A stretch of 32,804 nt of DNA from Lysobacteraceae bacterium (GCA_031285265.1 JAITWM010000078.1:1-32804); one strand, 5' to 3'; numbered from the stretch's first letter, positions 20,695 to 29,000 are shown. The notes: a model not told the origin generated them from the letters alone. Numbers and translations: made by a program.

Positions 20695-21726
20695 TCAAGT
20701 CGCCTGAAGGGCGCTCAGTTTACCGTGCTCGCGTTGTGAATCGGACCGGATGGCTTTCTTCAGTTTTTGCGCGATCCAGCGTTCGGCAAAGCCATCGCCG
20801 GATGCGTTGACGATAAAGCCGCAGTGACCACCGCACTCGGCGATTTCCAATTGAACGCTGCCGGGTAATCGCCAATCCTGAAAATCACTGACCGGAATCA
20901 CCGGGTCGTCTTCCGCCATCAGGATATGCGCCGGAACTTTCAGCCCCATCAAACGATCGTCGGCGATCGTGTAGCAATCGAAATACTCTTCCAACGATTC
21001 GAATCCTTCGCGCAGAGCGATCGAAGCCATCAACCCGCGCGTATCCTGCGCCAAGGTGGCATCGTCGTAATCGTGCAGTTCCGGAAACAGTTCGCGTTTA
21101 CGGACCAGCGATGCACGCCATTTGCTACGGAAATACCAGTCATACAATCCACCGTGCCTGGCGTTGGTGACGGCCGTGGAGGGATTGATCAGCGGACAGA
21201 TGGCCGCAACCCGTTTCAATGGCAATCCGGCCGGCTCCGCCCGCAACGCCAACCGCAACGCAAAATTGCCGCCCAGCGAAAATCCCGCCACGACCAACGT
21301 TTCCACGGAAAACTGCTGCACGATCGTTGCGGCGGCATCGGCCACCTCGTCCAGCAGCCCGGAATGGAACAATCCCGGATTGAGATGATGCGTATCGCCA
21401 TGATCGCGGAAATTCAATCGGAATATTTCGAACCCGTGGCGCAGCAACTGCGCTGCCGTCATCCTCATGTAACTGGATTCGGTGCTTCCTTCCCATCCAT
21501 GCAACAACAACGCCAGCGCACGTGAGCGGCGTTCCGGAAGATAGCTGTGACATCCTTGTAAGCGCACGCCCTTGCCGACATCGAGAACATGCACATGATT
21601 GACCGCGCCGCTGGCGACCAAGGCGCGCAACCCGCGCTGGCGTCGCAGCGAACTGGTGCTCAGAACCGATTGCAGATGCGGATTCCGCAGCCATCGGGGC
21701 GGGCGATAATGGGTGGCGCCGTTCAT
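20695..21726 (-). CDS. YheT-type alpha/beta hydrolase
   Basis: Alpha/beta hydrolase of the YheT/YMR210w (UPF0017) family, predicted esterase or acyl-glycerol hydrolase. The 343 residues show the family N-terminus PPRWLRNPHLQSVLS and the oxyanion region LLHGWEGSTESSYM. The nucleophile elbow is GFSLGG (Ser150), the acid region is AEDDPVIP (273-274) and the catalytic His is in GGHCGF (His301). ATG 21726 is the natural start, but no Shine-Dalgarno precedes it: the leader is a pyrimidine run instead. It lies 92 bp downstream of the PlsC-like gene and next to the TPR gene. It is not OleB, which belongs to the haloalkane dehalogenase-like group and has a different elbow. Confidence 0.9.
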   Translation of the reverse strand: MNGATHYRPPRWLRNPHLQSVLSTSSLRRQRGLRALVASGAVNHVHVLDVGKGVRLQGCHSYLPERRSRALALLLHGWEGSTESSYMRMTAAQLLRHGFEIFRLNFRDHGDTHHLNPGLFHSGLLDEVADAAATIVQQFSVETLVVAGFSLGGNFALRLALRAEPAGLPLKRVAAICPLINPSTAVTNARHGGLYDWYFRSKWRASLVRKRELFPELHDYDDATLAQDTRGLMASIALREGFESLEEYFDCYTIADDRLMGLKVPAHILMAEDDPVIPVSDFQDWRLPGSVQLEIAECGGHCGFIVNASGDGFAERWIAQKLKKAIRSDSQREHGKLSALQAT

Positions 21727-21818: not shown

Positions 21819-22574
21819 TCAGCTTTCCATCGCCGCAACGATGCGTTCGCGCGACAGTTCGGCGATTCGCCGCCGCCCCTCTGCATCGGCGGATACGTGG
21901 ATCGGTTCCAAAAAGTGTATTTCGGCCAACCGCACCGGTTCACCCAGCAAGCGGAAGAAATTGCCCATGAAACTTTCATTGGGCGCGAATGCCACCACGG
22001 TCTGTGCATCGCCGCGCTTGCCGTAACGTAACGCCACCGGCTGCACTGGTGCCTGCGTTTGTACTGCCGCTTGAAAAATACGCGCATGGAACGGACCGAC
22101 CTCCCGCCCACTGCGGGTCCGGCCTTCCGGAAACACGCCGACCGACCGGCCGCTCGACAGCCGTGCCTGCATCTGTTCCACGACATCATTGAGCGAATGG
22201 GGATTGCCGCGCTGATGGAAGATGCTCTGTCCCTGCGCCGTCAGCCAACCTATGAGCGGCCAGCGCGAGATCTCGTATTTGGCCACGAATCCCATCATCC
22301 GTTGGCTGTGCAGGGTTTCGATATCGATCCAGCTGACATGATTGGCGACGAACAGTACGCCTCCCGGCAATGGCGTTCCGAAGCGGCGTAGCCGGAAACC
22401 AAAAATCCACATCAAGCCTGCCGACCAGGCGCGCACTGCACGATCGCTGAGCCGATCCCCGCCGATGGTTATTTTCACGAATGGCGGCGACAGACACAGC
22501 ATGATGATTGGTAACGACACCAGAACGTGCAGTGACAGCAATGGCAAACGGACGAGATAGCGAAATAGACGCAT
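21819..22574 (-). CDS. PlsC-type 1-acylglycerol-3-phosphate acyltransferase
   Basis: Membrane-associated acyltransferase of glycerophospholipid synthesis: it acylates lysophosphatidic acid or a similar lysolipid. The 251-residue product has a hydrophobic N-terminal segment (about 5-28). Motif I is NHVSWID (78-84, the His-x4-Asp catalytic pair), and motif III is FPEGR (148-152), followed by TRSG. ATG 22574 is preceded by a GGCGGGG stretch at suitable spacing; the longer open frame to 22718 adds residues of no family character. It could be plsC itself or one of several paralogues. Confidence 0.9.
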   Translation of the reverse strand: MRLFRYLVRLPLLSLHVLVSLPIIMLCLSPPFVKITIGGDRLSDRAVRAWSAGLMWIFGFRLRRFGTPLPGGVLFVANHVSWIDIETLHSQRMMGFVAKYEISRWPLIGWLTAQGQSIFHQRGNPHSLNDVVEQMQARLSSGRSVGVFPEGRTRSGREVGPFHARIFQAAVQTQAPVQPVALRYGKRGDAQTVVAFAPNESFMGNFFRLLGEPVRLAEIHFLEPIHVSADAEGRRRIAELSRERIVAAMES

Positions 22575-22891
22575 AGCACCCCGCCGGGGGATGCGGCGGA
22601 CAACATGGAGATTATGTTCATTTTGGCACGAAATCGACCGTTGTCGATCTTGCCGATGGCGAGGGGCACGTGTTGCCAGCAGGATGGACGTGGACCGTAT
22701 GCGGCGAAACCACTCCAATCGTATCCGCGCCGTACCGATCCTATCGACCAGGCAAGATGGTACCTGCCGGGCCGATACGGTCGATCACGACGTTCCAATT
22801 GCTGGCAAGCGGTTTCACGCCTTTGTTTTGGGAGATTTGCCCGTACGTACCGCCTTGCCGGCGTGCCCTTCTATCGGACTGGTCCGTGCCA
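22575..22891. other. Intergenic stretch without a supported gene
   Basis: These 317 bp separate the ATP-grasp gene from the PlsC-like gene on the same strand. A minus-strand frame is open at 22741-22850 (SQNKGVKPLASNWNVVIDR), but its only starts lie inside the ATP-grasp gene, so I do not call it. No terminator hairpin was found. Confidence 0.4.
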
Positions 22892-24043
22892 TCACGCCGC
22901 CGCGTCCCCATTCCATTCGATATCGTAGGTCGATGCCGCATACAAATCGATCCGGTGGCGTTGCGCGCTGCGCATGAATCCCATCCAATCGATGATTCCG
23001 CCGAAGAACGGCCACCGGTCGCCGGGTTCCATCAACACATCGCGTGCGCGACGAAAATCCTCGCGCCACAGCGATTGAATACCCAAGCGTCGCGCCAGAG
23101 GCCAGCCCAACGCCAGCATCAGGGCAGCGATCATCCGCGGTTGCCGGCTGCCGATCGGTGCGACGGTGATCGGAATGCCGCTCATGGCATCGACCGGATT
23201 TTCGTTCTCCGCAAATACATGCACGCCGCTGGTCGCGCGTGGATTGCATTCGATGGCACGGATACCGCCCTCGTCGTCGACGATCCAATCGAACGAAATC
23301 TGGCCGCTGTAATTCAACCTTGCCACCAGCCGCCGTACTGCTGCCTCGATCGCATCCGAAACGCAGGGTTCGAAATAATAGCCGGCTCTGCCAACCAATC
23401 GATAACGCGCAAAATAAACCGCATGCGCAAGCAGGCATCCACGCTCGGCAATACCGTAGGAACACATTTCACGGCCGGTGCAATAACGCTGCGCCACCCA
23501 TGCCCCTTGATTCTCCAGTGCTGGCGCATCGGCAGGAATTCCTTCCGTATAACAACGCACGTGTGCGCCAAAACGGGAATATTCCGGCTTCAGCACGACC
23601 GGTCCGGCCTCAGCCCACTTACGGGCTTCTTCGAGATTCCGAACCAACATGCTTGCTGGTGTCGGCACTTTCGCCGATTGTGCCAACTCCAGAAATCGCC
23701 ATTTGCTGTGCAAGGCGTGTAGCTGTTCGAAATCATCCACCAATATCTGTACTTGGCGCGGCAAATCATTCCGATGACGCGCTAAGTAGAACGTCTCTTC
23801 GCATGTCGGCACGATCAGATCGATTCCGTATTCACGGATCAGCGTATTCAAATCATCGAGAAATCTTTCCGGCGCGAATCGCGGCGAAGCCACCTGCGCT
23901 ATTTTTCTCACCGCGCGTGACCAGGCCATCGCGCGACATGGCAAACTGTCGGCGGCATATACGTGCCATTGACGTGCCGCGAACCGGCGCGCCAACTCCA
24001 ATGCCACCGGTGCGCGCGCGCCAAGAATCAGGACATTAGGCAT
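22892..24043 (-). CDS. ATP-grasp domain ligase of the OleA/OleD-like cluster
   Basis: Predicted ATP-dependent ligase that activates a carboxylate as acyl phosphate and joins it to an amine, thiol or other nucleophile; the substrate is unknown. The 383-residue product starts with a Rossmann-like pre-ATP-grasp domain (MPNVLILGARAPVALELARRF). The ATP-grasp domain has VVLKPEYSRFG (Lys152), VAQRYCTGREM, and the metal-binding ISFDWIVDDEGG...AIECNPRATSG (Glu265, Asn267). ATG 24043 has GGAGG just upstream and overlaps the stop of the MBL gene by 8 bp. The longer frame to 24094 overlaps more and adds nothing family-like. It is the last gene of the four-gene unit; in the classical ole cluster the ligase-like step belongs to OleC, which is unrelated in fold. 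Confidence 0.87.
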   Translation of the reverse strand: MPNVLILGARAPVALELARRFAARQWHVYAADSLPCRAMAWSRAVRKIAQVASPRFAPERFLDDLNTLIREYGIDLIVPTCEETFYLARHRNDLPRQVQILVDDFEQLHALHSKWRFLELAQSAKVPTPASMLVRNLEEARKWAEAGPVVLKPEYSRFGAHVRCYTEGIPADAPALENQGAWVAQRYCTGREMCSYGIAERGCLLAHAVYFARYRLVGRAGYYFEPCVSDAIEAAVRRLVARLNYSGQISFDWIVDDEGGIRAIECNPRATSGVHVFAENENPVDAMSGIPITVAPIGSRQPRMIAALMLALGWPLARRLGIQSLWREDFRRARDVLMEPGDRWPFFGGIIDWMGFMRSAQRHRIDLYAASTYDIEWNGDAAA

Positions 24044-24863
24044 CCGGCCTCCATTCCGAACAATGTGAAGGCACGATCCGAACATCCGGCGCATTCCGGC
24101 TCAATGCGTGCAACCGCGCCAACGTCTGCCTATACGTTCTGGTATCACCCAACCAGCCCGTCACCAGCCGTGGCGGCGGTACTCCATCACGGATCGCCTG
24201 GCTCGACCATGCTGCATCGGCGATCAGGAAAACCATCCGGCCGCTGGTTTCCCGAAACAACAGACCGTATTGACCGGCGGCATGTCCTGGTAACGGCACG
24301 GCCAGTAGAGCGCCGTCTCCCAATACATCGCGGCCATCGCCGAAATCGGAGAATGCGGGCGGCAACGCGACTGCCGGGCGCTGTTCCAGCCAATGCAGAC
24401 GATTGCGCGCGGCGATGACCAGTCCCGGCAGCAGCCCTTTGCTCAAGGCATTGAGCCGGCCCCGCCTGGTCATATCGTCCCAGGCCCGTTGCGCACAGAA
24501 CAGCATCGCACGCGGAAAATCCTGTATGCCGCCGACATGATCCCCATGCAAATGCGAAAGTACGATCATGCGGATATCCGAAGACGGCAAGCCTATTCCA
24601 CGCAATTGCTCGCGCAGAGACTCACCCGGGCGTAATTGCACCGGCGTCGCCACACGGTACAACCGTTCCGGCATATGTTCGGTAGCACGCAGGAACGCCT
24701 CCGAATATCCGGTATCGAACAGGATGGCGCCCACATCCGGATGCCGGATCAATGCCGCCAATGCCGGAAACTGGCATCGATGCCGCGATCCGCCCTTACG
24801 GGCCGCCCATTCTGCATGCGTGCAATATCCCGCCTCGAACAATTGCCATTCAAGTGCGCGCAT
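24036..24863 (-). CDS. Metallo-beta-lactamase-fold hydrolase of the OleA/OleD-like cluster
   Basis: Predicted metal-dependent hydrolase, related to lactonases and thioesterases of the MBL superfamily. The 275 residues contain the metal motif SHLHGDHVGG (His104, His106, Asp108, His109), a later LPGHAAGQYG (third His), IADAAW (bridging Asp) and PSHCSEW near the C-terminus. I chose ATG 24863: GGAGG lies nine bases before it, within the end of the epimerase gene, giving a 14-bp overlap. The open frame reaches 24953, but that start would overlap the epimerase by 104 bp. It overlaps the ATP-grasp gene downstream. A role in hydrolysing a lactone or thioester intermediate is inference from fold and neighbours. 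Confidence 0.88.
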   Translation of the reverse strand: MRALEWQLFEAGYCTHAEWAARKGGSRHRCQFPALAALIRHPDVGAILFDTGYSEAFLRATEHMPERLYRVATPVQLRPGESLREQLRGIGLPSSDIRMIVLSHLHGDHVGGIQDFPRAMLFCAQRAWDDMTRRGRLNALSKGLLPGLVIAARNRLHWLEQRPAVALPPAFSDFGDGRDVLGDGALLAVPLPGHAAGQYGLLFRETSGRMVFLIADAAWSSQAIRDGVPPPRLVTGWLGDTRTYRQTLARLHALSRNAPDVRIVPSHCSEWRPDA

Positions 24864-25869
24864 GTTCGGATGCCTCCATGCGGCCGCACGATATGCCGCG
24901 CCAATAATCGGCGAATCTTCGGATACCGGCGTCGATACTGATGCCCGGTTCATATCCGAGCTCGTTCCGCGCCGCGCTGATATCCAGCGTCTGCGAATAG
25001 CCGATCACTCCGACACCGTATCGCGTCAAACGCGGTTCCGGGCATCCCGGCCGGATTCTGGCAATGAGCTCGGCCAGACCTGCTGCAGTCAATGCCAATT
25101 TTCGCGGTAGGCGCACCCAGCGTACGGTCATATTCAATGCATCGAATACCTTACTCATCAATTCACCCGCACGAATCGGATTTCCGTTGGTGATGTTGTA
25201 CGCGCGGCCATGTGGCAGTCCATCGGCCTGTAATGCCAGTTCGATCGCATCCACCACGTTGTCGATATGCGTGATGTCGATCAGTGCATTACCACCGCCA
25301 ATCAGCGGAAAACGGCCTCCCGCTGCCATCGCCAACAAACGTGGCAGGATGGCTTGATCGCCTTCGCCGAATACGGCGCGCGGACGCAGAATCAATGCAT
25401 GAGGAACTCGTCCATGCAATGACCGCAGTGTTTCTTCAGATTCCCATTTGCTTCGTGCATAGTGCGTGATCCAGCGCTTTGGAGGGGTGAAAGCTTCTTT
25501 CACTTCATATTGGTCCGCGAACCGGAAGTAAATGCTGGGCGAGCCGATATGAATGAAACGAACGACACCTGCTTTCCGCGCGGCCAATGCCAATCGCCGG
25601 GTCGCATCGACATTAGCGCGCTGGAAATCCTCCGCTCTTCCCCATGGCGCGGATAGTGCGGCGCAATGCACGACGGCTTCGCAATCATTCAACAGCGGCA
25701 TCAATGGATCGCTGGTCAAATCGGCCGCAATTACTGCGGTCGATATATCCAGCCCCCTCAAACGACTGTGATCGCGTCCCGTCGCGACGACGCGATGTCC
25801 TTTGGCCGCCAACCGCAACGCGGCATGCCGGCCGATGAACCCTGATGCACCAGTGACCAGTATCCGCAT
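24850..25869 (-). CDS. NAD(P)-dependent epimerase/dehydrogenase, OleD-like
   Basis: Extended short-chain dehydrogenase of the 3-beta-hydroxysteroid dehydrogenase/OleD type. The 339-residue product has the nucleotide-binding GASGFIG (7-13), an acidic/basic selector region (ATGRDHSRL), the Ser region IGSPSIY (108-114), and the catalytic YARSK (Tyr137, Lys141). OleD reduces the 2-alkyl-3-ketoalkanoate made by OleA; an equivalent ketone reduction is a reasonable guess here. It begins 3 bp after the stop of the condensing-enzyme gene and overlaps the MBL gene. The overall length matches OleD-type proteins. Confidence 0.88.
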   Translation of the reverse strand: MRILVTGASGFIGRHAALRLAAKGHRVVATGRDHSRLRGLDISTAVIAADLTSDPLMPLLNDCEAVVHCAALSAPWGRAEDFQRANVDATRRLALAARKAGVVRFIHIGSPSIYFRFADQYEVKEAFTPPKRWITHYARSKWESEETLRSLHGRVPHALILRPRAVFGEGDQAILPRLLAMAAGGRFPLIGGGNALIDITHIDNVVDAIELALQADGLPHGRAYNITNGNPIRAGELMSKVFDALNMTVRWVRLPRKLALTAAGLAELIARIRPGCPEPRLTRYGVGVIGYSQTLDISAARNELGYEPGISIDAGIRRFADYWRGISCGRMEASEHART

Positions 25870-25872
25870 CTT

Positions 25873-26886
25873 TCAGTACTTCAAAATGCTTCCACCGAGC
25901 GACAAGCCGGCGCCGGAACCGAGCAGTGCCACGGTTTGACCGCGCTGTAAACGGCCGTCGGCGATGACGCGGTGCAATCCTGCCGGGATCGATGCGGACA
26001 GTTGGTTGCCATGATCTTCCAGAATATGGACCACGCGCTCCTCCGGCAATATGGATGCTTTCCGTAAATGCGCCAATGCTTTTCCGCTGGCCTGATGCGG
26101 TATCAGCCAATCCATGTCACCGATCTCCATTTCGGCTCCCGCGAACAGCCGGCGCAGAAAACCCGGCAACTGTGAGGCGGCCTGCTTGTATACCATTTTC
26201 CCATCCATCTCAAAATGCGCGCCATCGATGAATGTCCGGACATCGTCTTTGACCCGTAATCGGGTTCCTCCCGCACGCACTCGGCAGAAATCGGCGCCAT
26301 CACCATAAGCTTCCAATCGTGCCGTCAACAATGCCGATCCCGTCTGTTCGGTATCCGACTCCACGAGAACCGCCACGGCACCATCGCCGAACAATGGCGC
26401 AGTAAGCACATCGTCCCAATTCAGCCCGCATGATGGGACTTCCACCGAAACGATCAGGATGCGGCGGTAGCGGTGCGTAGCGATCGCCAGCGACGCCATA
26501 TCCAGCGCCACGAGAAAGCTCAGGCAGGTCGCATTGATGTCAAACGCTGGAATACCGCTGTTGCCATAACCCATTTCACGCTGCAGCAATGCGCCCAGGC
26601 AAGGAATCGGCTGTTCCATCACACTGCATGCGGAAATCAGGCAATCCACTTCTTCGAAACGGATTCCTGCAACTTCCAAAGCGTCCCGCGCGGCTCGTGC
26701 GCCCATGAACGAACTGGTTTCGTGCGATGCTGCAAACCGACGCCTGGCAACACCGGTCTGCTGGAACGTCCATCCTTCCGGTTTACTCCAACGTCGATCG
26801 AGTTCGACCGACTCCACTCCTCTGCTGGGCAGATATTCACCCGTGCCGACAATACGCATCGGTATCGGCAAACCGATCATACTCAT
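25873..26886 (-). CDS. OleA/FabH-like thiolase-fold condensing enzyme (3-oxoacyl-ACP synthase III)
   Basis: Predicted Claisen-condensing enzyme acting on acyl-CoA or acyl-ACP. Counted from ATG 26886 (337 residues) the triad is Cys121 (DINATCLSF), His264 (LIPHQASGKAL) and Asn294 (HGNQLSASIPAGL), with the terminal LLGSGAGLSLGGSIL. The spacing of Cys, His and Asn fits FabH and OleA. A Glu at 91 (SVMEQPIPC) sits where OleA has its catalytic Glu117, suggesting head-to-head condensation rather than malonyl-ACP use; this is from unaided alignment. The start is uncertain: ATGs at 26910, 26904, 26886, 26880 and 26859 are in frame, and only 26886 has a G-rich tract upstream (11 bases away). It is the first gene of the unit, divergent from an HTH regulator. 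Confidence 0.85.
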   Translation of the reverse strand: MSMIGLPIPMRIVGTGEYLPSRGVESVELDRRWSKPEGWTFQQTGVARRRFAASHETSSFMGARAARDALEVAGIRFEEVDCLISACSVMEQPIPCLGALLQREMGYGNSGIPAFDINATCLSFLVALDMASLAIATHRYRRILIVSVEVPSCGLNWDDVLTAPLFGDGAVAVLVESDTEQTGSALLTARLEAYGDGADFCRVRAGGTRLRVKDDVRTFIDGAHFEMDGKMVYKQAASQLPGFLRRLFAGAEMEIGDMDWLIPHQASGKALAHLRKASILPEERVVHILEDHGNQLSASIPAGLHRVIADGRLQRGQTVALLGSGAGLSLGGSILKY

Positions 26887-26913
26887 ACTGGTCGATGCCC
26901 CCATCACCATAAA

Positions 26914-26931
26914 TGTCAGTACACACTGACA
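26914..26931. promoter_or_regulatory. Perfect inverted repeat upstream of the condensing-enzyme gene
   Basis: TGTCAGT-ACAC-ACTGACA: 7-bp perfect arms around four bases, just upstream of the condensing-enzyme start region. Its size and symmetry fit an operator for a dimeric HTH protein; the divergent HTH gene is the obvious candidate regulator. It shares the TGTCA/TGACA half-site with the repeat at 27032-27045. Confidence 0.5.
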
Positions 26932-27031
26932 CGTTCCCCCTTCGGCTACCAAAGCCGGCAGCCGGAAGCTGCAATTATTATCAGCCGAAAGATCATATCT
27001 TGATACTCTTATCGATATTTTTTTCGGTTAT

Positions 27032-27045
27032 TGACACTCATGTCA
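27032..27045. promoter_or_regulatory. Inverted repeat overlapping the start codon of the HTH regulator
   Basis: TGACA-CTCA-TGTCA is a perfect 5-bp inverted repeat that includes the ATG at 27040. It uses the same half-site as the 26914-26931 repeat, with the arms facing the other way. Binding here would block the regulator's own translation start or early elongation, consistent with autoregulation. Confidence 0.4.
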
Positions 27046-27795
27046 GGATCTCAGCTCGTCGTACAAGCCATTCGCGATCTATTGCGTGCCCGCGGCATGA
27101 CCTACCGCGAGTTGGCAGAGCGGCTAGGCGTCAGTGTGCCCACGGTCAAGCGCGATCTGAGTCGCGGCGATTTCTCACTGAGCCGGCTCGATCAGATCTG
27201 CGAAGCGCTTGAAATCACTATCGGCGATCTGTTGCAGAACGAAGTCCGACAGAGCGAGGAATATCTCACGCAACTCAGTAGCACACAGGAAGACGCACTG
27301 GTCACCGATCCCAAGTTATTACTGTTGACATACTTACTGATCAATCATTGGAGTTTCGACGAAATCATTTCGACATACTCCATCGATGAAAACGAGCTTA
27401 TTTCATTGCTGCTACGACTCGATCAACTGAAGATCATCGATTACCGCCCGCCGCGGCGGGTAAGGAAACTGACGGCAAGGAATTTCACCTGGCGTAAGGA
27501 TGGCCCTGTTCAGGAGTTTTTCCTGAAACGGATCGTCCCGGAATTTTTTGACATTCATTCCGAAGAACGCGATGCCGATTCGTTCTACTTTGTCGCCGGC
27601 ATGTTGTCCGAAAGTTCCAGACAATATCTAGCTAATTCAATGCAACAGTTGGCGCGTGAATTCGACGAGCTGTCGCGGCGAGATAATCGGTTATCGCTAG
27701 GATCGCGTCACGGATGCAGCGCCGTCCTGGCGCTGCGTCACTGGGAATTTTCCGATTTCACTCACCTGCGCCGGAAGCCACGGACACCTGCGTGA
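27040..27795 (+). CDS. HTH (XRE-family) transcriptional regulator, divergent from the condensing-enzyme cluster
   Basis: DNA-binding regulator. From ATG 27040 the product is 251 residues. An XRE/lambda-repressor-type HTH covers about 6-64 (MTYRELAERLGVSVPTVKRDL is the helix-turn-helix core, with DQICEALEITIGDLL after it). The remaining 185 residues hold an unrecognised effector or dimerisation domain. It contains LLLLTYLLINHWSFDEIISTY, a second winged-helix-like stretch around LLLRLDQLKIIDYRPP, and a helical C-terminus (SRQYLANSMQQLAREFDEL). An in-frame TTG at 27031 is a less likely start. It is divergently placed next to the condensing-enzyme operon, so local control is likely. No repressor or activator role can be decided from sequence. 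Confidence 0.85.
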   Translation: MSGSQLVVQAIRDLLRARGMTYRELAERLGVSVPTVKRDLSRGDFSLSRLDQICEALEITIGDLLQNEVRQSEEYLTQLSSTQEDALVTDPKLLLLTYLLINHWSFDEIISTYSIDENELISLLLRLDQLKIIDYRPPRRVRKLTARNFTWRKDGPVQEFFLKRIVPEFFDIHSEERDADSFYFVAGMLSESSRQYLANSMQQLAREFDELSRRDNRLSLGSRHGCSAVLALRHWEFSDFTHLRRKPRTPA

Positions 27796-28577: not shown

Positions 28578-29000
28578 TTAGCGGCGTGGAATGACCGCCA
28601 GCGTCAATCGAGAGATACACACTAATCGAGCTTCTTCATCTTCGATGCGAATCTCCCAGACATGGGTACTTCGGCCGATATGCAACGGGCGAGCAGTGCC
28701 AGTAACGATACCCTCGCGTATTCCACGGACGTGGTTGGCATTGATATCCAGGCCCACGCACACCTCTCGTTCGGGGTCCAAGCACAATAGTCCGGCCACG
28801 CTGCCCAGTGTTTCCGCCAACGCAACCGACGCGCCGCCGTGCAGCAAGCCGTATGGTTGCCTGGTCCGCTTGTCTATTGGCATGGTGGCGCGCAGCCAAT
28901 CATCTCCCGCTTCGGTGAAAACAATGCCGAGATGGTCGATCATCGTGTTTTGACGGAGCGCGTTGACGGCTTTCAAAGAAACAGGTTCGCGAAAGGTCAT
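28578..29000 (-). CDS. Hotdog-fold thioesterase, YdiI/MenI-like
   Basis: Acyl-CoA thioesterase of the PaaI/YdiI group. The E. coli relatives hydrolyse DHNA-CoA and other aryl- or acyl-CoA substrates; the true substrate here is unknown. The 140-residue product has family length. It shows the catalytic region YGLLHGGASVALAETLGSVAG with His54 and Glu63 in the expected places, and conserved DINANHVRG after it. ATG 29000 is the natural start. It lies right next to the CRISPR array and is transcribed toward it; its last codons are about 60 bp from the final repeat. Confidence 0.93.
   Translation of the reverse strand: MTFREPVSLKAVNALRQNTMIDHLGIVFTEAGDDWLRATMPIDKRTRQPYGLLHGGASVALAETLGSVAGLLCLDPEREVCVGLDINANHVRGIREGIVTGTARPLHIGRSTHVWEIRIEDEEARLVCISRLTLAVIPRR

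Follow-up and report, generated by a model that had tools for sequence, protein, structure and literature searches.

A Lysobacteraceae ketosynthase, reductase, metallo-hydrolase and ATP-grasp gene cluster as a candidate short form of a widespread cluster family for acyl-chain biosynthesis

We analysed a stretch of 32,804 nucleotides from a Lysobacteraceae bacterium (GCA_031285265.1, JAITWM010000078.1; hereafter the window), which is contig C55 of a 2.44-Mb genome in 229 contigs with an estimated completeness of 86.65%. It holds a compact unit of four genes encoding a ketosynthase III (KS), a reductase of the extended short-chain dehydrogenase/reductase (SDR) type (RED), a metallo-beta-lactamase-fold hydrolase (MBL) and an ATP-grasp ligase (GRASP), with a regulator of the XRE family divergent from them (Table 1). 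Our reading, to which we assign a probability of about one half, sees in this unit a short form of a family of acyl-chain biosynthesis clusters that is widespread, apparently undescribed and built on a KS-RED-MBL core. The predicted activities point to a reduced acyl acid in amide linkage, built from one chain or two, as the probable product. No account of this gene combination was found in the open-access literature; subscription journals were mostly uncovered, and a description may exist. There is a fair chance that the whole cluster family is undescribed.

The reading is carried by the recurrence of these genes in a fixed order. Among the 149 genomes of the window's family that were examined, the four-gene combination singled out by an earlier note on this DNA recurs in 11, all Xanthomonadaceae and with the window included. 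The KS, SDR and MBL genes of the window are adjacent and co-directional, and match the three profiles of the family. A gene for a GNAT-like protein (NAT) accompanies ten of these eleven clusters, all except that of the window, and eight of them have a Rieske gene within the stretch read. The cluster of Oleiagrimonas citrea displays an insertion. It encodes XRE, KS, RED, MBL, an AMP-forming TIGR02304 protein (ADN; F390 synthetase-related in NCBI annotation), GRASP, NAT, a Rieske oxygenase and a phosphopantetheinyl transferase, the ADN (441 bits to TIGR02304, cut-off 252) being a single gene placed within the KS-RED-MBL-GRASP order. The earlier note had supposed that related KS III/epimerase/MBL groupings might exist with other ligases, and the TIGR02304 enzyme is such a ligase. 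Selection on all four genes is strongly purifying, with nonsynonymous divergence (dN) of 0.23-0.35 against synonymous divergence (dS) of 1.4-2.4 between the window and the one congener. Since gene order is kept in relatives and the genes are under purifying selection, the grouping is not a product of chance, and the earlier view of a coherent functional unit stands. Our coordinates also agree with the layout described there, namely four minus-strand genes with a 3-bp gap, overlaps of 14 and 8 bp and a divergent start, and the catalytic motifs said to be intact were found in all four proteins.

The core extends well beyond this form, with homologous KS-RED-MBL clusters across Proteobacteria and Bacilli. 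Some other genera have a bare KS-RED-MBL triad. A further form, in which KS-MBL-RED is followed by a GT21 (HpnI-like) gene, a gene for a 203-aa protein with no Pfam match and a GT28 gene, occurs at L062-L064 (g234), L065-L068 (g238) and L096 (L denotes fetched loci, g and G genomes), the genomes with this form being g234, g238 and G560, the last from another family of the same order. We take g238 to be Xanthomonas because its OleA is about 97% identical to the solved Xanthomonas-type OleA (3fk5). Outside the window's order, the core is accompanied by ADN. This combination lies on plasmid records of Paraburkholderia, Shinella, Ketogulonicigenium, Paracoccus, Pseudomonas, Paenibacillus and Pontibacillus, and was also found in genomes of further families. 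In Escherichia coli, for example in strains ABU 83972 and LF82, it sits between narI and purU. The operon of ABU 83972 (L116:8001-14882), flanked by narI and tRNA-Tyr/purU, encodes KS, SDR, MBL, ADN, PAP2, a fatty acid hydroxylase-type protein and an acyl-CoA desaturase. For the first three of these genes, matches were obtained in 672 of 5,426 complete E. coli genomes (12%), 670 of them at ≥99% identity. This seven-gene, lipid-type operon is apparently uncharacterised. Two observations concern the accessory genes of the family. Sulfotransferase and TetR genes are divergent from KS-RED-MBL-ADN in Ketogulonicigenium (L111:4345-5358) and Paracoccus (L115:4341-5387). The GNAT-like proteins (L005:9300-10409 and relatives), annotated by NCBI as "GNAT family N-acetyltransferase", have no Pfam or NCBIfam match and no solved relative by sequence.

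The XRE regulator belongs to the unit together with a predicted operator. It is divergent from KS in the window, L005, L052, L057, L060, L061 and L096. The motif GTATCA-N5-TGATAC was read off the first six of these loci and was afterwards found in L096, which had played no part in the derivation. With at most two mismatches it occurs once per locus in all seven, always between XRE and KS, and near KS in none of the 21 loci that lack this regulator. The match at 26990-27006 is by itself unremarkable, 0.68 matches per window being expected by sequence alone, so that the weight of the predicted operator comes from the position that it shares among the XRE loci. A scan for consensus promoters and terminators gave no more matches than shuffled sequence.

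Table 1 Features of the window
Feature	Position	Strand	Remarks
Ketosynthase III (KS), PRK07204 / MxnB-CorB kind	25873-26910	-	345 aa; Cys129, His272, Asn302
NAD(P)-dependent extended SDR (RED), OleD/HpnA-like	24850-25869	-	339 aa; predicted beta-keto reductase
Dizinc metallo-beta-lactamase-fold hydrolase (MBL), AHL-lactonase-like	24036-24863	-	275 aa; predicted thioesterase or lactonase; alternative longer in-frame start at 24953
ATP-grasp ligase (GRASP), PRK06849-like, ATP-grasp_3	22892-24043	-	383 aa; predicted carboxylate-amine ligase; alternative longer start at 24094
XRE/HTH_26 regulator	27040-27795	+	divergent from KS; conserved next to the cluster at seven fetched loci
Divergent region between KS and XRE genes	26911-27039	.	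intergenic
Predicted operator AGATCATATCTTGATAC	26990-27006	.	consensus GTATCA-N5-TGATAC, 2 mismatches
AHL, N-acyl-homoserine lactone

From these predicted functions we infer a route in which the KS would carry out a condensation, the reductase act on the keto group, the MBL release the product and the ATP-grasp ligase form an amide or a bond of that kind. An acyl chain would be loaded on Cys129 of the KS and condensed either with malonyl-ACP, as in FabH, or with a beta-ketoacyl partner, as in the myxopyronin and corallopyronin ketosynthases MxnB and CorB; neither would need the glutamate of OleA, the condensing enzyme of the olefin (ole) pathway. The reductase would convert the keto group into a hydroxyl, the dizinc hydrolase would cleave the thioester to give the free acid, or open a lactone, and the ATP-grasp enzyme would activate the carboxylate and join it to an amine or amino acid, while XRE would control the operon at GTATCA-N5-TGATAC. 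In relatives, the core product may be further modified by the TIGR02304 enzyme, the GNAT-like transferase, the Rieske oxygenase or glycosyltransferases; the window retains the core and the ATP-grasp ligase only.

Several points weigh against this route. The KS could be decarboxylative or non-decarboxylative. The designation of the ATP-grasp protein as a carboxylate-amine ligase comes from its family and motifs alone, because its structure model (pLDDT 46) was too poor and was not used. A crude pattern search near the clusters gave no believable candidate for a carrier-protein gene. Finally, the GNAT-like, Rieske and AMP-forming genes of the relatives are missing from the window, so the pathway may be incomplete.

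The KS displays a Cys129/His272/Asn302 (CHN) triad and scores 377 bits against PRK07204 (cut-off 402; NCBIfam profiles). The earlier note called it OleA-like, a label that our results do not support: against the OleA-type model PRK09258 it reaches 90 bits, far under the cut-off of 285, and the catalytic glutamate is replaced. The window KS was aligned to the genome's own OleA and FabH. In the column of E117 of Xanthomonas campestris OleA, a glutamate that reaches across the dimer, it has Ile102 and FabH has Phe, while OleA, including that of the same genome, has Glu. The Glu91 for which the earlier note had suggested such an alignment does exist (Glu99; Glu91 if numbered from Met9), but in another column. 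The nearest solved structures are MxnB (4v2p, 223 bits) and CorB (4yuc, 217 bits), while OleA entries score about 48 bits. In a tree of 29 rows, which included the cluster KSs, MxnB/CorB, FabH and OleA, the cluster KSs appear to group with MxnB/CorB, apart from FabH and OleA, although both of these are on long branches. Only the KSs of two triads from other genera (g236, g247) are sisters of MxnB/CorB (support 100/98), and the window KS falls outside this sub-branch. Triads of KS-RED-MBL type were seen at L069, L070 and L071, in genomes of 6.2-6.3 and 3.2 Mb from the window's family; at L069 and L071 the KS is of this MxnB/CorB-sister kind. The glutamate used by PpyS and OleA is absent from MxnB/CorB (PMC4578411); the window KS likewise combines a CHN triad with the lack of this base. 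Because the base is missing and MxnB/CorB are closest, the window KS is unlikely to join two plain fatty acyl chains as OleA does, and these comparisons make a malonyl or beta-keto partner the more likely.

The CHN triad with a hydrophobic residue in the glutamate column, as in FabH, and a score of 239 bits against the FabH-type model PRK09352 (cut-off 249) also agree with plain elongation of one chain, a special case of the route proposed here. A FabH-like decarboxylating KS and the reductase would then yield a 3-hydroxyacyl chain, the MBL would act as a thioesterase and the ATP-grasp enzyme would form an N-(3-hydroxyacyl) amino acid or amide. Hydroxyl-modifying neighbours in relatives (the GT21 and GT28 families and the sulfotransferase) point the same way. 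However, the closest characterised KS relatives fuse two chains, and fatty acid synthesis already supplies 3-hydroxyacyl-ACP, which would make a dedicated KS and reductase redundant. We consider this version unlikely, while granting it a real chance of being right.

The metal ligands of the MBL, comprising HLHGDH (HxHxDH), His194, Asp216 and His267, are invariant in 13 rows. Its AlphaFold2 model (mean pLDDT 73) has AHL lactonases as best matches (Foldseek E 6e-12; VIA-align Z 15.2, 3.8 Å over 204 residues). In sequence it stays below the cut-offs of all curated lactonase models, with 72 bits against a cut-off of 390 for AttM and lower for the others. Lactonase-type active sites act on lactones and, by superfamily precedent, on thioesters. 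PqsE-type thioesterases were not among the structural matches listed for the model, which is neutral either way. The similarity to AHL lactonases in both sequence and model would also suit a signalling system, in which the KS joins two beta-ketoacyl chains into an alpha-pyrone or lactone, the MBL opens or recycles this product and XRE senses it. MxnB joins two beta-ketoacyl chains into alpha-pyrones (PMC5724707), and a dedicated regulator with a predicted operator is at hand. Against this, no polyketide synthase lies nearby, the reductase present in every cluster would eliminate the keto group needed for pyrone closure, the window KS is outside the MxnB/CorB sub-branch and the ATP-grasp step would be left unexplained. 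We give such a signal only a small chance.

The ATP-grasp protein retains the ATP/Mg motif residues Lys152, Asp252, Glu265, Asn267 and Arg269, invariant in 12 rows. PRK06849 is its best family by far, at 301 bits, short of the cut-off of 406, and the score for Pfam ATP-grasp_3 is above the cut-off. A distant GRASP homologue adjoins a protein with AMP-binding and carrier domains, a neighbourhood that would agree with an enzyme ligating activated acids or amino acids. No TIGR02304 protein was found in the window's genome or in the congener. Among the fetched clusters, eleven contain GRASP without ADN, all from Xanthomonadaceae; seven contain ADN and MBL with no GRASP listed (L099, L100, L101, L110, L111, L113, L115); and nine contain both ADN and GRASP (L005, L097, L098, L102, L103, L108, L109, L112, L114). 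Because the two stand side by side in these nine clusters, the ATP-grasp enzyme represents an extra step and not a stand-in for the AMP-forming enzyme.

NAT is absent from the window and from its own assembly and present in the congener; the window form is therefore shorter, whether through gene loss or because the assembly has a gap elsewhere. This absence raises the possibility of a cluster in erosion, whose lineage lost the GNAT-like and Rieske genes, as the family lost the AMP-forming gene, and whose remainder is disappearing. The ATP-grasp gene is indeed the least conserved of the four against the congener (58% identity, dN 0.35), and searches of the window for remnants of the GNAT-like, Rieske and AMP-forming genes gave chance-level tblastn matches only. 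Yet all four reading frames are open with intact motifs, dN is far under dS, the regulator and predicted operator are retained, and at the assembly's completeness a missing gene is no proof of loss. Erosion therefore strikes us as improbable.

The unit is not a modified olefin pathway, and the same genome has a separate oleA, oleC and oleD. The reductase carries the motifs TGASGFIG, GSPSIY and YARSK, and its best NCBIfam match is the OleD model, at 186 bits against an equivalog cut-off of 580. The genome's own oleA lies on contig C124 (450 bits to PRK09258), and its own oleC on C65 (716 bits, cut-off 478), beside the start of an oleD that a contig end splits over C65 and C112 (76 and 506 bits) and that is intact in the congener (616 bits). 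The earlier note was right that the unit lacks both OleB and OleC: no OleC was found within the four genes and no alpha/beta-hydrolase in the operon, the search for OleB not having been genome-wide. It had also named oleB and oleC elsewhere in the genome, working with two of the window's enzymes, as a finding that would speak against it. This applies only in part, since an oleC does exist elsewhere, but with its own oleA and oleD. A variant of the ole pathway, in which the KS would fuse two fatty acyl chains, the OleD-like enzyme reduce the product and the ATP-grasp ligase and MBL replace OleC and OleB, as that note proposed, would profit from the reductase's best match, from the formal parallel of the four enzymes to OleA, OleD, OleC and OleB and from the AMP-forming enzyme found in most homologous clusters outside Xanthomonadaceae, but is very improbable given the KS score (90 bits, while a different gene in the genome reaches 450), Ile in the glutamate column, the genome's own oleC and oleD, and the nine clusters that hold ATP-grasp and AMP-forming enzymes together.

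Three neighbouring genes were kept apart from the unit. The LPLAT gene (21819-22718) was present in 6/6 genomes searched. One of these has no cluster, and in the others the gene is located away from it; since LPLAT thus occurs in relatives with or without the cluster, it was counted as a neighbour only. The YheT-like hydrolase gene (20695-21726) was rejected as a member and treated as a downstream neighbour. A hotdog-fold acyl-CoA thioesterase (EntH/MenI-like) is encoded at 28578-29000, past the XRE gene and outside the conserved cluster.

A cluster family around the KS-RED-MBL core thus remains our preferred reading, and it may reach further. At slightly worse than even odds, we suggest a large undescribed class of bacterial metabolites, made with no assembly line of the classical polyketide or peptide type and found from Bacilli to a fraction of complete E. 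coli genomes, in which the core would be combined with interchangeable sets of tailoring steps (amidation by ATP-grasp enzymes, AMP-forming or GNAT-like transfer, Rieske oxidation and glycosylation), the window, with an XRE operator of its own, being the minimal amidated form. A three-gene core that is met again in different phyla, with ligases and decorations that can be exchanged, constitutes a testable family. If the product of one cluster were solved, it would account for those in Xanthomonadaceae, Rhizobiaceae, Rhodobacterales, Burkholderiaceae and Bacilli and in 12% of complete E. coli genomes. In E. coli, the form between narI and purU is amenable to simple gene removal, and the predicted operator offers a direct handle for switching on the Xanthomonadaceae form.

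Each of the enzymes comes from a known superfamily, and the layout recalls both Ole and pyrone systems. With OleABCD of X. campestris the unit shares a thiolase-fold condensing enzyme, an OleD-related extended SDR, an ATP-using ligase and a hydrolase; it differs in a KS far under the OleA model and devoid of its glutamate, in an ATP-grasp ligase (with TIGR02304 too in relatives) where the Ole pathway has OleC, and in an MBL where OleB is of the alpha/beta fold. MxnB and CorB, of myxopyronin and corallopyronin biosynthesis, are, among solved structures, closest in sequence to the KS over its whole length and share its CHN triad and lack of the glutamate base. However, they serve polyketide assembly lines, of which there is none here, whereas the window KS is coupled to a reductase and a hydrolase and sits in another sub-branch. 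The AHL lactonases (AiiA, AhlX, GcL) and 4-pyridoxolactonase share with the MBL the fold and all seven metal ligands, with Z of about 15 to AiiA, but the window protein is under every curated lactonase cut-off and is embedded in a biosynthetic operon. Also close are clusters annotated by NCBI as KS III C-terminal protein, NAD(P)-dependent oxidoreductase, MBL fold hydrolase and F390 synthetase-related protein, which have the same core in the same order. Many of these TIGR02304 clusters also contain ATP-grasp and GNAT-like genes, whereas the Xanthomonadaceae form, including the window, is without the TIGR02304 gene.

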